A DNA stretch of 64,000 nucleotides from Rubrivirga marina (GTDB taxonomy: Bacteria; Bacteroidota; Rhodothermia; Rhodothermales; Rubricoccaceae): assembly GCF_002283365.1 (NCBI RefSeq), contig NZ_MQWD01000001.1:2403665-2467664 (forward strand). Direction: 5' to 3'. The stretch's first letter is position 1; the number at the start of each line of letters is the position of its first letter. A program made the position numbers and the translations under genes. Positions 32,215 through 54,521 of the stretch are shown piece after piece. The notes under the pieces are model-generated. The model was not told the DNA's origin. It made no database searches and saw only the letters and a program-made list of their open reading frames with translations.

Positions 32215-32287
32215 GCTGGCGTAGCTCAACTGGCAGAGCAGCTGATTTGTAATCAGCAGGTTGGGGGTTCGAGTCCCTTCGCCAGCT
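32215..32287 (+). tRNA. tRNA-Thr (anticodon TGT)
   Basis: Seven-base-pair acceptor stem GCTGGCG/CGCCAGC, anticodon arm GCTGA-TTTGTAA-TCAGC with TGT at the anticodon, T arm with GGTTCGA core. The discriminator base is T and CCA is not encoded. It reads ACA and ACG codons. First of four tRNAs before tuf. Confidence 0.95.
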
Positions 32288-32330
32288 CCGCCGAGCCACC
32301 CGTGACGCGGCCTCGCACGTTCTTTCTTCC

Positions 32331-32413
<83 letters not shown>

Positions 32414-32505
32414 CGATTAGGCATTGTCGATCGGGAGACCGCCGATTGGTGATTGGGCCGCGCCGCTCGATCGCGAGTCGAACGTCACCCAGTCGCTCAT
32501 GCGAT

Positions 32506-32578
32506 GCGGGAGTAGCTCAGTTGGTAGAGCATCAGCCTTCCAAGCTGAGGGTCGCGGGTTCGAGTCCCGTCTCCCGCT
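32506..32578 (+). tRNA. tRNA-Gly (anticodon TCC)
   Basis: Acceptor GCGGGAG/CTCCCGC, anticodon arm TCAGC-CTTCCAA-GCTGA (anticodon TCC), discriminator T. Reads GGA and GGG glycine codons, the latter being unusually common in the tuf gene just downstream. Confidence 0.95.
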
Positions 32579-32666
32579 CCCGGACTTGGCGATGAGGTGA
32601 TCGGCGATCGATCGATTGGGAACAACCCATCGTTCAATCCCCCTCTTCAGTCGACAATCCACCCCC

Positions 32667-32738
<72 letters not shown>

Positions 32739-32802
32739 CCGCGGCCCGCGCCGCCCAGTGACACCCAACCCAACGCGCAGCGAGCGCTCAGACTACAGAC
32801 CC

Positions 32803-33990
32803 ATGGCGAAGGAGCAATTCCAGCGGACGAAGCCGCACGTGAACGTCGGGACGATCGGCCACGTCGACCACGGCAAGACGACGCTGACGGCGGCGATCAC
32901 GAAGGTGCTCGCCGAGGCGTCGGGCGGCGAGGCGAAGAACTTCGAGGACATCGACAACGCCCCGGAGGAGCGGGAGCGGGGGATCACGATCGCCACGGCC
33001 CACGTCGAGTACGAGACGGCCGAGCGGCACTACGCCCACGTCGACTGCCCGGGCCACGCGGACTACGTCAAGAACATGGTGACGGGGGCGGCCCAGATGG
33101 ACGGGGCGATCCTCGTCGTCGCGGCGACCGACGGGCCGATGCCCCAGACCCGCGAGCACATCCTCCTGGCCCGCCAGGTCGGCGTGCCCTACATCGTCGT
33201 GTTCATGAACAAGGCGGACCTCGTCGACGACGAGGAGCTCCTGGAGCTCGTCGAGATGGAGGTCCGCGAGCTCCTCTCGAGCTACGAGTTCCCGGGCGAC
33301 GACCTCCCGGTGATCCAGGGGTCGGCGCTGGGGGCCCTGAACGGGGAGCCGGAGTGGGTGGCGAAGGTCGACGAGCTCATGTCGGCCGTCGACGCGTACA
33401 TCCCGACGCCGGAGCGGGCGGTCGACCGGCCGTTCCTCATGCCGGTCGAGGACGTGTTCTCGATCACGGGCCGGGGGACCGTCGTGACGGGCCGGGTCGA
33501 GCGGGGGTCGATCAAGGTGGGGGACCCCGTCGAGATCGTCGGGATGCAGGAGGAGAAGATGACGTCGACGGTGACGGGCGTCGAGATGTTCAGGAAGCTC
33601 CTGGACTCGGCCCAGGCCGGGGACAACGCGGGGATCCTCCTCCGGGGGATCGAGAAGACGGCGGTCGAGCGGGGGATGGTCCTGACGAAGCCGGGGGCCG
33701 TCACGCCGCACAAGCGGTTCGAGTGCGAGGTGTACATCCTGTCGAAGGACGAGGGGGGCCGGCACACCCCGTTCTTCAAGGGGTACCGTCCCCAGTTCTA
33801 CTTCCGGACGACGGACGTGACGGGGGACATCGAGCTGGCCGAGGGGGTCGAGATGGTCATGCCGGGGGACAACACGCAGTTCACGGTGGACCTCATCGTC
33901 CCGGTGGCGATGGAGGAGGGGCTCCGGTTCGCGATCCGCGAGGGCGGGCGGACCGTGGGGGCCGGCGTCGTCTCCAAGATCCTCGACTGA
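32803..33990 (+). CDS. tuf: Translation elongation factor Tu
   Basis: 395 residues. EF-Tu delivers aminoacyl-tRNA to the ribosome as a GTPase. GTPase motifs are [17 protein letters not shown] and NKADLVDD; switch I ends [12 protein letters not shown]. Domains 2 and 3 follow ([49 protein letters not shown]). The catalytic histidine is in PGHADY. ATG 32803 begins the family N-terminus [16 protein letters not shown]. Codon use is odd: by my count about 25 of 38 glycines are GGG, whereas rpl/rpo neighbours use almost only GGC. A strong hairpin follows the gene. Confidence 0.98.
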
Positions 33991-34005
33991 GCCGGCCTGG
34001 AGTCA

Positions 34006-34031
34006 CCGCCTCGGCGCCCGCGCCGAGGCGG
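34006..34031 (+). terminator. Hairpin after tuf (CCGCCTCGG family)
   Basis: Perfect 11-bp stem CCGCCTCGGCG/CGCCGAGGCGG with a 4-nt loop, 15 nt after the tuf stop and upstream of tRNA-Trp. No T-tract follows. Likely a transcription terminator or mRNA 3'-end stabiliser, and also a member of the dispersed palindrome family. Confidence 0.6.
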
Positions 34032-34073
34032 CGGTCTCCATCGGTCCTTCCGAACACGGTGCCCGCCGGTTCG

Positions 34074-34081
34074 TAGATTGA
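34074..34081 (+). promoter_or_regulatory. Candidate -7 element for tRNA-Trp/secE/nusG
   Basis: TAGATTGA resembles TAnnTTTG, 42 nt upstream of tRNA-Trp and downstream of the tuf hairpin, suggesting a fresh transcript for the tRNA-Trp-secE-nusG unit. Confidence 0.4.
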
Positions 34082-34122
34082 TGCGTCCGCCGGCGTCCTT
34101 CGGGGCGCCGGCGGTCCGCTAA

Positions 34123-34195
<73 letters not shown>

Positions 34196-51337: not shown

Positions 51338-52867
51338 GTGACTCTGCGTCGTCTCCTGTTCGCGCTGGCCGCGGTGTCGGTCGGCGTGCTCCTCGGTCTC
51401 CCGGTCGTCCGGCTGCTCCAGCCGGACCCCGAGCCCGTGCCGCAGCAGGCGCCCGCGCCGTCGGCGCCGGCCCGGGTCGAGACGGTCCAGATCGGGGCCG
51501 ACGGGCCGCCGCCGGCCGCGGAGATCGGCACGCCCGACCTCGCCGACATCAGCCAGCAGACGCAGGCGGTCGCCCGCGCCGTCGACCGGGCCGTCGTCTA
51601 CATCGAGGTCGAGCTCGGGCCCGGCTACGCCCGCGGGCAGACCGAGGCCGGCAGCGGGATCATCATCTCGGACGCCGGCTACGTCCTCACCAACGCCCAC
51701 GTCGTGGCCCGGGCCACCGAGGCCCTCGTCATCCTCCCCTCCGACAAGCGCGAGTACCGGGCCGAAGTCGTCGGGCGCGACCCGACGACGGACATCGCCG
51801 TGCTCCGGTTGTTCGAGGTCGGCGTGGACGACGAGGAGCCGCTCCCGGTCGCCTCGCTCGGCGACTCCGACGCCCTCGAGGTGGGGGAGTGGGTGCTCGC
51901 CGTCGGCAGCCCGTACCGGCTGATGAACACGGTCACCTCGGGCATCGTGTCGGCGCTGGGCCGCGGCGGGCTCAACGCGATCCCCAACGAGTTCGCCATC
52001 GAGGACTTTATCCAGACCGACGCGGCTATCAACCCGGGCAACTCGGGTGGGGCGCTCGTCAACCTCCAGGGCCAGGTCGTGGGCGTCGTGACGGCGAACG
52101 CTTCCGACAACGGCTACGCGGCCGGCTACGGGTTCGCGGTCCCGATCAACCTCGCGCGTGTCGTGGCCGAGAGCCTCATCCGGTACGGCGAGGTCCGACG
52201 GGGCTACCTCGGCGTCGAGGTGTTCCCTGTCGACCGGGCCGATGCACGCGAGGCCGGGATGCCGGACGTTCGCGGCGTGCTCGTCACGCGCGTGGTGTCG
52301 GGCGGCCCCGCGGCGCAGGCCGGCGTCCGCCCCGGCGACGTGCTCCTCGAGGTCGGCGGCCGGTCGGTCGACGCGCCGAACCAGTTCCAGAGCCGGCTGG
52401 CGATGTTCCAGCCGGGCGAGGGCGTCGAGCTCTCCGTCTGGCGCGGCGGCGAGGCCCGGGCTCTCGAGGCGACGCTCTCGGACCCGACCGACCCGTCGCT
52501 CGAAGATTGGTTCGCCGGGCCGTCGACGCCCGCGTCGCCCCAGACCGGCCCGCAGGAAGAAGAGGTCGCGCGGTCCGAGGCGCCCGACTGGGGCGTCCGC
52601 TTCCGCGACCTCACGCGTCCCGAGCGCCGCGCGTTCGAGAGCGGCGCCTTCGTCGAGTCGATCGAGCCCGGCAGCGCGGCCGAGCTCGACGGGCTCCCGC
52701 GGGGGACCGTCGTCGTGGCCGTCGAGAACCGCCCGGTGGCGACGGCCGAGGAGGCGCGCGTCGCGCTCGCCCGCCTCGCCCGCCAGGACCGCCCCGCGCT
52801 CTTGCGCGTCCGCCGCCCCGACGGCCGGACCGCGTTCTACGACCTGGCGTCGCCATTCGTCGATTGA
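51338..52867 (+). CDS. HtrA/DegP-family serine protease with two PDZ domains
   Basis: 509 residues from GTG 51338, which directly precedes a membrane-anchor helix (LLFALAAVSVGVLLGLPVV). An in-frame ATG at 51269 would add 23 residues and is the alternative start. The trypsin-like domain has the catalytic His in VLTNAHVV, Asp in DPTTDIAVLRL and Ser in NPGNSGGAL. PDZ1 (about residues 280-370) contains GYLGVEVFPVD and VVSGGPAAQAGVRPGDVLLEVGG. PDZ2 (about 415-505) contains SIEPGSAAELDGLPRGTVVVAVENRPV. Family role: periplasmic quality control or regulated proteolysis. Its stop lies 2 nt before the four-helix-bundle cassette. Confidence 0.92.
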   Translation: MTLRRLLFALAAVSVGVLLGLPVVRLLQPDPEPVPQQAPAPSAPARVETVQIGADGPPPAAEIGTPDLADISQQTQAVARAVDRAVVYIEVELGPGYARGQTEAGSGIIISDAGYVLTNAHVVARATEALVILPSDKREYRAEVVGRDPTTDIAVLRLFEVGVDDEEPLPVASLGDSDALEVGEWVLAVGSPYRLMNTVTSGIVSALGRGGLNAIPNEFAIEDFIQTDAAINPGNSGGALVNLQGQVVGVVTANASDNGYAAGYGFAVPINLARVVAESLIRYGEVRRGYLGVEVFPVDRADAREAGMPDVRGVLVTRVVSGGPAAQAGVRPGDVLLEVGGRSVDAPNQFQSRLAMFQPGEGVELSVWRGGEARALEATLSDPTDPSLEDWFAGPSTPASPQTGPQEEEVARSEAPDWGVRFRDLTRPERRAFESGAFVESIEPGSAAELDGLPRGTVVVAVENRPVATAEEARVALARLARQDRPALLRVRRPDGRTAFYDLASPFVD

Positions 52868-52868
52868 T

Positions 52869-53304
52869 GATTGGGTGATCGGGTGAGTGGGGAAGACGAT
52901 GAGACGGAGCACGGGCGGCGAGCGGAGGCGCTCCGGGATCGGACGAAGGCGTACGCGTTGAGAGTCATCCGATTCTGCCGGTCGCTTCCTGACTCCGACG
53001 AGGGGCGTGTCATCCGTCGTCAGATGCTCCGGTCGGCGACCTCGGTGGCCGCGAACTACCGCGCCGCGTGCCGCGCCCGGAGCCATCGGGAGTTCGTCGC
53101 CAAGATCAGCGTCGTGCTCGAGGAGGCCGACGAGACCGAGTTCTGGATCGAACTAACGGTGGATGCCGGGCTGGCGGATGCGGAGCGCACACGGGACCTT
53201 CTCCGCGAGGCGAGCGAGTTGGTGGCGATCTTCGCAGCCTCCCGCCGGACGGCCAAGCGGCGATCCTGAGGGCGGCTCAATCTCCACTCACCCGCTCACC
53301 AATC
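52869..53304. mobile_element. Putative cassette: four-helix-bundle ORF between imperfect inverted repeats
   Basis: Left arm 52869-52893 and right arm 53281-53304 are inverted copies matching at about 22 of 25 positions, sharing GGGTGAGTGG. The cassette begins 2 nt after the htrA stop and ends 5 nt before the aroC ATG. The only gene inside is the four-helix-bundle ORF. Related proteins are known from intervening sequences of 23S rRNA, which also have complementary ends. Mobility is inferred; no target duplication was recognised. Confidence 0.5.
52883..53269 (+). CDS. Four-helix-bundle protein (S23/IVP family)
   Basis: 128 residues from GTG 52883, with TTG 52871 as an alternative that adds four residues. 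Matches the four-helix-bundle/23S-rRNA-intervening-sequence protein family: LRDRTKAYALRVIRFCRSLP, RQMLRSATSVAANYRAACRARSHREFVAKISVVLEEADET and FWIELTVDAGL. The fold is shared with Avd of diversity-generating retroelements, but no reverse transcriptase or template repeat is nearby. The start codon lies inside the left inverted repeat. Function unknown; a nucleic-acid-binding role is suspected for the family. Confidence 0.88.
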   Translation: MSGEDDETEHGRRAEALRDRTKAYALRVIRFCRSLPDSDEGRVIRRQMLRSATSVAANYRAACRARSHREFVAKISVVLEEADETEFWIELTVDAGLADAERTRDLLREASELVAIFAASRRTAKRRS

Positions 53305-53309
53305 CCCCA

Positions 53310-54521
53310 ATGCGTTACCTCACCGCAGGAGAGTCCCACGGCGAGGCCCTCGTCGGCATCGTCGAGGGGATGCCGGCCGGCGTGCCCGTCACGCCCGCCG
53401 ACATCGACGAGCACCTGAGCCGCCGCTGGCTCGGCTACGGCCGCGGCGGGCGCGCCAAGGTCGAACGCGACCAGGTCCGGGTGCTCGGCGGGATCCGGTT
53501 CTCGCACACGATGGGGAGCCCCGTCGCGCTGCTCCTCCCGAACGCGGCCTACGAGAAGGACCGGGCCGGCTGGCCCGAGACGATGGCCGTCATGGGCGAC
53601 GGCGACGGCGTCGAGCGCGTGACGCTCCCGAGGCCCGGCCACGCCGACCTCGTCGGCGCGCAGAAGTACGGGTTCGACCGGCCGCCGCACGGGCCCGACG
53701 TCCGCCCGGTGATCGACCGGTCATCGGCGCGGGAGACGGCGATGCGGGTGGCGTGCTGCTCCGTCGCCCGGCAGATGCTCCGCGCGCTCGGGATCGAGGT
53801 CGGGAGCCACGTCGTCCGCCTCGGGGAGGTCGGCCTCGACGACCCGGCGGGCTGGGCCGAGGATCGGGACGCGCTGCTCGCCGAAGGCGGCGCGCGGGCG
53901 CTCTACGAGAAGGCCGACCAGTCGGAGGTCCGAATGCTGGGCGACGCGCTTTCCGAGCGGGCCATCGAGCACATCAAGGCCGCGAAAAAGGCGGGCGACA
54001 CGCTGGGGGGCGTCTATGAGGTCGTCGCGACCGGCGTCCCCGTCGGCCTCGGGAGCTACGCACAGGGCGACCGGCGGCTCGACGGGCGGCTCGCGCAGGC
54101 GATCCTGTCCATCCAGGCGCAGAAAGCGGTGGAGGTCGGCGACGGGTGGCTGGCAGGGCGCCGACCCGGGTCCGAGGTCCACGACCCCATCACGCGCGAC
54201 GGCGACCGCTGGGGCCGCGAGAGCAACCACGCCGGCGGCGTCGAGGGCGGCATCTCGAACGGCCAGCCGCTCGTCGTCCGCGGCACGATGAAGCCGATCC
54301 CGACCCTCATCAAGCCGCTCGGGACGGCCGACCTCGCGACGGGCGAGGCCCAGCCGACGCGCTACGAGCGGAGCGACGTGACGAGCGTGCCCGCCGCGAG
54401 CACGGTCGCCGAGGCGACGGTCGCGTGGGAGATCGCCGTGGCCCTCCTCGAGCGCTACGGCGGCGACACGTTCGGGGCCCTCCGCGAGCGCGTCGAGGCG
54501 GACCGGGAGCGCGGCTTCTGA
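53310..54521 (+). CDS. aroC: Chorismate synthase
   Basis: 403 residues. It converts EPSP to chorismate, the end of the shikimate pathway, using reduced FMN. Signatures are MRYLTAGESHGEALVGIVEGMPAG, RRWLGYGRGGRAKVERDQV, GSPVALLLPNAAY, RPGHADLVGAQKYG, SSARETAMRVACCSVARQ, ESNHAGGVEGGISNGQPLVVR and the C-terminal RSDVTSVPAASTVAEA. ATG 53310 is exact for the family. It lies 5 nt downstream of the four-helix cassette right arm, so its native leader has been replaced by the element. Confidence 0.97.
   Translation: MRYLTAGESHGEALVGIVEGMPAGVPVTPADIDEHLSRRWLGYGRGGRAKVERDQVRVLGGIRFSHTMGSPVALLLPNAAYEKDRAGWPETMAVMGDGDGVERVTLPRPGHADLVGAQKYGFDRPPHGPDVRPVIDRSSARETAMRVACCSVARQMLRALGIEVGSHVVRLGEVGLDDPAGWAEDRDALLAEGGARALYEKADQSEVRMLGDALSERAIEHIKAAKKAGDTLGGVYEVVATGVPVGLGSYAQGDRRLDGRLAQAILSIQAQKAVEVGDGWLAGRRPGSEVHDPITRDGDRWGRESNHAGGVEGGISNGQPLVVRGTMKPIPTLIKPLGTADLATGEAQPTRYERSDVTSVPAASTVAEATVAWEIAVALLERYGGDTFGALRERVEADRERGF

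Follow-up and report, generated by a model that had tools for sequence, protein, structure and literature searches.

The closest described counterpart of the element studied here is the intervening sequence of Coxiella rRNA, which carries tandem GACAGAT heptamers before its S23 ORF and is excised by RNase III, as stated in the available part of the report (PMC4990558). The same part of that report describes the Xanthomonas S23 protein as a homopentamer of toroidal form and gives the function of S23/IVP proteins as unknown (PMC4990558). Heptameric repeats have been reported as GGGAATC in Xanthomonas and GGGGA[CT]T in Nostoc; two Xanthomonas genomes hold 70 and 75 convergent inverted heptamer pairs, the repeat sequence is variable between relatives, and slippage was proposed as its origin, according to the accessible sections of the study (PMC4692102), in which S23 or four-helix proteins have 0 occurrences. 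REPINs are mirrored, hairpin-forming doublets between genes, built of REP sequences that are common to copies and linked to a transposase, as the accessible sections describe them (PMC3116915). A link of S23 genes to mirrored 7-8 nt arrays was not found in the open-licence literature; subscription journals are mostly uncovered by that search, and an earlier description is possible.

In the window (the whole 64-kb stretch of DNA analysed here), the 442 nt between the htrA stop codon and the aroC start hold one S23/IVP ORF and two inverted arms. The window's own genome is designated G000, other G numbers are related genomes of the order and L numbers are loci. The left arm was computed to be a period-8 array, while the cores of the window were read by eye. 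The features of the locus are as follows.

52865..52867, plus strand: stop codon of htrA, the upstream border of the cassette; htrA adjoins aroC in relatives.
52863..52893, plus strand: left arm, with four clear cores by eye and a doubtful fifth.
52863-52866 (ATTG), 52870-52873 (ATTG), 52878-52881 (ATCG) and 52886-52889 (AGTG), plus strand: left-arm cores, at steps of 7, 8 and 8.
52883..53269, plus strand: S23/IVP four-helix-bundle ORF, from GTG; alternative start TTG at 52871.
53278..53311, minus strand: right arm, with five ATTG-like cores by eye.
53308-53311, 53300-53303, 53293-53296, 53285-53288 and 53278-53281, minus strand: right-arm cores, at steps of 8, 7, 8 and 7; read on this strand with the outermost first, they are ATTG, ATTG, AGCG, AGTG and ATTG.
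53310..54521, plus strand: aroC (chorismate synthase), the downstream border, with its ATG at 53310-53312.

The initial annotation had described the ends of this unit as inverted copies, and positions 52869-52893 are indeed identical to the reverse complement of 53281-53304 in 22 of 25 columns with one gap (score 33); a longer pairing of 52863-52893 with 53281-53311 spans 31 nt at 77%. It was also right that the unit fills the gap from the htrA stop to the aroC ATG and that the ORF begins within the left arm, where both in-frame starts before the domain lie (TTG 52871 and GTG 52883); no in-frame ATG was found upstream of the S23 domain in this ORF. The outermost left core overlaps the htrA stop codon and the outermost right core overlaps the AT of the aroC start codon. 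An ATG-like stretch is present at both cassette borders; it may be a target-site duplication, but could equally reflect the required start codon.

The proposed identity of the protein, an S23/IVP-type four-helix bundle, was confirmed by matches over the cut-offs to PF05635 (E 3.5e-16, 59.8 bits vs a cut-off of 33.8) and TIGR02436 (E 1.5e-24, 86.3 bits vs a cut-off of 24). For the ORF in the 442-nt gap Pfam gave 23S_rRNA_IVP as the sole family, with no transposase in the cassette, which holds no recombinase either. The structure predicted for the window S23 protein from 34 sequences consists of four helices (pLDDT 94.9), and its best structure matches were 2RLD (E 1.1e-5) and 2GSC (E 1.4e-3), both with chains A-E. 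The S23 ORF is under purifying selection, with dN/dS of 0.05-0.35 where dS is unsaturated. PADLOC returned no match that would identify the S23 protein as part of a defence system.

Taken alone, the inverted repeat of the window is unremarkable: the best of 200 single-base flank shuffles also scored 33 (mean 21.8), and the whole 64 kb holds 9 ungapped inverted pairs with a score of at least 30 within 800 nt. The feature is judged real because of the comparison with other copies and not because of this repeat. S23 genes (PF05635) were found in 45 of the 99 genomes of the order, with up to 11 in each and one in G000. The order set consisted of 113 S23 copies, 112 of them with enough flank, and the subfamily set, from a GTDB scan for the subfamily of the window protein, of the top 80 among at least 563 relatives, 79 with enough flank. 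The wrongly cut locus L059 (score 22) is counted in the 112 and is replaced by L128 from the period analysis on, and one locus common to both sets (L203, identical with L097) is counted in the 79 and dropped later. Left flanks were locally aligned with the reverse complement of the right flanks, and the threshold was set at a score of at least 30.

The arms matched in 54 of the 112 order-set copies, the other 58 remaining below the threshold, compared with 1.2% of 3360 swapped arms and 0/48 pairs taken 700 nt further out; same-strand (direct) matching of the flanks reached 30 in 4.5% of the 112 copies. Among the subfamily copies, which come from relatives in many phyla, the arms matched in 65/79, compared with 6.0% of 2370 swapped arms and 0/69 pairs 700 nt further out, and direct matching reached 30 in 14/79. 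Without the locus shared with the order set, 64/78 subfamily copies matched, in 13 of 15 author-labelled groups. A fixed terminal inverted repeat common to the copies is absent. Arms match within a copy but, for the most part, not when swapped between copies: the repeat unit is particular to each copy, and what the copies have in common is the architecture. The suggestion that all such genes might be flanked by the same ends was upheld in one half: many S23 genes are flanked by inverted ends, but these ends are not one shared sequence. The cassette is in this respect unlike an insertion sequence or MITE, as its copies have neither common terminal repeats nor a transposase.

The arrays have a regular period. 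Among the copies passing the arm threshold (54 in the order set and 64 in the subfamily set), the best period was 7 or 8 in 95/108 and 125/128 arms, respectively, with flat shuffles, and the two arms of one copy preferred the same period (7 or 8) in 50/54 and 62/64. Array length was 4.0-5.5 units in 40/79 arms of the order set and 62/108 of the subfamily set; 16 and 22 arms had at least 6 units, and 22 and 19 had fewer than 4. In 138 arms of the window's subfamily we also followed chains of ATT cores at steps of 7 or 8. The longest chain most often had five cores (47/138 arms), compared with four in 17, six in 11 and seven or more in 14; in 49 of the 138 arms the number of ATT cores was at most three, a different core being present in some of these, and the chains in 690 shuffles were never above three. 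Examples of units off the ATT mode are GAGTTAG (L185) and AATGCGG (L097).

The letters of the unit change between species at orthologous sites, as seen before trpD (GGTTCAG, GGTACNG and GGTTCCG) and before a DUF711-like gene (GGGATGN vs GGGGACT). With orthologous sites assigned by us from flank matches (site L less surely), 79 directed comparisons were made of a copy's own arm with the flank of its ortholog; the own arm was the better match in 55 and the poorer in 23, these comparisons being mutually dependent, drawn from 11 sites and made with arms chosen by their own match. An earlier orthologous-site test, biased by the same choice of arms, gave arm agreement in 25/31 pairs; the set of 79 is the fairer of the two tests. 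Unit resemblance was correlated with protein resemblance (Mantel r 0.30, n=54, and 0.29, n=64; 0/2000 permutations), a modest correlation that comes mostly from close pairs and falls to r 0.07 below 45% identity.

The cassettes lie tightly between genes, as far as the rough ORF-based gene calls behind the neighbour counts tell. The left arm begins at most 12 nt from a co-directional stop codon in 19/29 (order) and 42/53 (subfamily) copies, with the gene-end heuristic choosing a wrong-frame stop for the window copy, and the right arm ends a median of 6 nt (order) and 5 nt (subfamily) upstream of the next start. Sites named from translations include ftsW/murG in Pedobacter and tldD/pmbA in Fischerella. 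No rRNA match was found in the window, nor in 20 related S23 loci that were scanned, in agreement with the earlier description of a cassette outside rRNA that codes for a protein, has inverted ends and sits where two genes meet. Five tRNA genes lie within 2 kb of one another in the window (32215-34195).

We then compared filled and empty junctions among relatives. aroC was found in 39 of the 40 genomes searched, and 30 loci were fetched. htrA adjoins aroC in 25 genomes (G000 included), and only G000 has the cassette there; the gap is at most 13 nt in 9 of the 25, including G005, G006 and G008 of the same family and G017. The junction is thus empty in close relatives, as the initial annotation had proposed to check. 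The congeners G001 and G003 have cassettes upstream of trpD and of the DUF711-like gene, and the gaps of G000 at these two junctions measure 12 and 22 nt, with no cassette. The der locus was present in 29/30 genomes, 26 of which were examined by eye and 22 were readable: full cassettes occur in G081, G087, G031, G066 and G014, truncated S23 remains in G020 and G058, and a 9-nt gap in G039. The case that would have spoken against the initial annotation, a locus fixed across the family with no inverted repeats at other copies, is true in neither half. As a separate observation, the htrA-aroC gap of the congener G003 (L065) is a one-strand run of the 9-nt unit CTCGTCCCG and has no S23 gene.

Presence or absence at several sites suggests, at the level of sequence, that the cassette can move. 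The closest within-genome S23 pair among 187 pairs is 83% identical, so no recent jump of the S23 cassette is seen. Of the 112 copies, 51 had their nearest relative at the same site, 10 had it within the same genome and 51 had it elsewhere. The description of the locus as a mobile unit is supported by junctions that are empty or filled among relatives, but not by any recent transposition; movement, if any, would be slow or rare.

Mirrored arrays also occur without an S23 gene. The der junctions of G040, G063 and G017 and the aroC junction of G039 hold such ORF-less arrays, and for each of them 0/300 shuffles attain its score. Other candidates seen by eye failed the shuffle test and were rejected, namely at aroC in G006 (28/300), G019 (49/300), G001, G002, G003, G015 and G029, and at der in G072. 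Across 464 kb of G000 there was no genome-wide excess of inverted pairs at periods 7 and 8 (6 and 11, vs 16 each at periods 5, 10 and 11). The period-7 pairs of G000 had a loop below 60 nt in 5/6, compared with 31/439 for other periods, and, judging by ORF calls, these short-loop pairs are located at gene ends or close to them. Short ORF-less mirrored heptad arrays were noted on contig C1 of G000 at about 2057382, 2244716, 2265222, 2292845 and 2386513; the array near 2292845 ends at the start of a trmD-like gene.

Our preferred explanation, which we hold with even confidence for and against, is a junction-dwelling S23 cassette placed between two inverted arrays of about five cores at a 7-8 nt pitch, which would be read by the S23 pentamer. 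The equal numbers of cores and subunits, five of each, suggest a one-to-one pairing: the S23 protein would form a five-subunit ring in which each subunit reads one core on single-stranded RNA or DNA. The TRAP RNA-binding ring takes one short repeat per ring subunit; it is a protein unrelated to S23, with another repeat and ring size. By such an analogy, a pitch of 7-8 nt with spacers of 3 or 4 nt would suit a single strand wrapped around a ring more readily than a double helix contacted on one face. The two arrays would be the ends through which the cassette is maintained and now and then mobilised, with cutting and joining performed by a host-cell enzyme outside the cassette. With slippage and with copying from arm to arm, the unit could drift without the two sides losing their agreement. 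Mirrored arrays that lack an ORF would be relatives of the cassette that either depend on it or have decayed. The cassette is probably selfish. Both the binding of cores by the S23 protein and the mobility of the cassette are inferred here.

The arms might instead be kept for RNA and not as mobile ends, a tentative alternative that we consider unlikely, though a serious one. The stem of the arms around the S23 ORF would then be excised or processed like the rRNA intervening sequences, or the S23 ring would bind the 5' array of its own mRNA to set its level, the 3' array competing by pairing. The excision of the Coxiella rRNA sequence by RNase III, as given in the available part of its report (PMC4990558), is consistent with this, as is a predicted fold in which the right arm pairs with 23 of the 25 bases of the left; but the fold of the entire window RNA is only a little better than those of shuffles (z -1.59, with 9/100 shuffles as good). 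Similarly, S23 is co-directional with both neighbours in 43/61 and 32/51 clear-arm copies, but not in 18/61 and 19/51. The existence of mirrored arrays without an ORF also argues against an RNA-level role, and these gene-less arrays, together with arms that are kept alike, speak for the ends of an element. The same gene-less arrays at der and aroC and in G000 would fit an origin in which the arrays came first, with polymerase slippage making mirrored 7-8 nt arrays at junctions and S23 genes landing there by chance. Slippage is the origin proposed for heptameric repeats in the accessible sections of that study (PMC4692102), and the number of units differs between the arrays of two Planktothrix strains. 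We nevertheless consider this improbable, because arms that match at 65/79 subfamily copies vs 0/69 far controls, a mode of five cores and a unit resemblance that follows the protein are not expected from chance landing, and 400 kb of G031, which has 7 S23 copies, contains only one short mirrored period-7 array (1 inverted pair at period 7 and 0 at period 8).

That a reverse transcriptase or some other known transposase is the partner of S23 in trans, in the manner of the Avd of diversity-generating retroelements or of RAYT and REPINs, is in our view highly improbable. Avd is a pentamer. It shares the four-helix fold, and the Avd structures 4DWL (E 0.06) and 8UB7 (E 0.07) are among the fold matches of the model, but at E 0.06 or worse these are weaker matches. 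Unlike a diversity-generating retroelement, G000 has no reverse transcriptase: RVT_1 has no match in G000 or in 34 further S23 genomes among the 45. The requirement for a reverse transcriptase acting in trans was rejected, with 10/45 S23 genomes vs 19/54 others having one. Y1 transposases are commoner with S23 (19/45 genomes vs 4/54, in counts that ignore relatedness), but 26/45 S23 genomes have no Y1 match, which speaks against a Y1 transposase as the mover. The two Y1 matches of G000 are both on contig C10 and the cassette is on C1, so they are unlinked to the repeats. A chance inverted repeat in GC-rich DNA would account for the window alone, whose repeat is within the shuffle range, but it is refuted by the swap, far-flank and shuffle controls across copies and retains a negligible probability.

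Set beside the described systems, the five-core S23 cassette resembles an rRNA intervening sequence in its S23 ORF, its length of about 430 nt and its complementary ends, and with the tandem heptamers before the Coxiella S23 ORF, reported in the available part of that source (PMC4990558), the comparison drawn by the initial annotation holds. It differs in that the window cassette lies between protein genes and not in rRNA, and in that ends of the window type are ordered arrays with a copy-specific unit. Like the Xanthomonas and Nostoc heptameric repeats, the cassettes have G-rich tandem 7-nt units between genes, which is what defines heptameric or STRR-type repeats, the window copy having a period of 8 with some 7-nt steps; the heptamer study, however, deals with one unit type per genome, whereas the unit of S23 cassettes differs per copy. 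Some mirrored S23-type arrays also lack a gene, as in REPIN/RAYT systems, but S23 cassette units differ and there is no transposase inside.

A wider claim is possible, to which we give somewhat less than even weight: S23 proteins would be five-subunit rings that read five-core arrays, and these arrays would be the ends of recombinase-less mobile cassettes, the letters being free to change as long as the five cores, the 7-8 nt pitch and the arm agreement persist. The rRNA intervening sequences, the mirrored heptamers found in Xanthomonas and Nostoc, and the S23 genes that lie between other genes in many phyla would then be one kind of element. If S23 binds a five-core array, the protein family, the mirrored heptameric repeats and the tandem heptamers of the rRNA element would be explained together. 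The architecture gives a testable idea of what the widespread S23/IVP family recognises, and ends that change their letters yet keep their form are unusual for a mobile element.

Several S23 loci were also recorded for their neighbours. Genes read from their translations as cas4 and cas1 flank the S23 cassette of Gracilimonas mengyeensis (L223, 1420-1884). In a Parcubacteria locus (L211), the S23 match at 1501-1833 lies between a tmRNA (1062-1450) and two tRNA genes. Two Planktothrix agardhii plasmids (L329 and L330) carry the same S23 cassette after drmD of a DISARM system, and this DISARM-linked cassette is followed by an MmeI-like gene in one strain and by PglX in the other.
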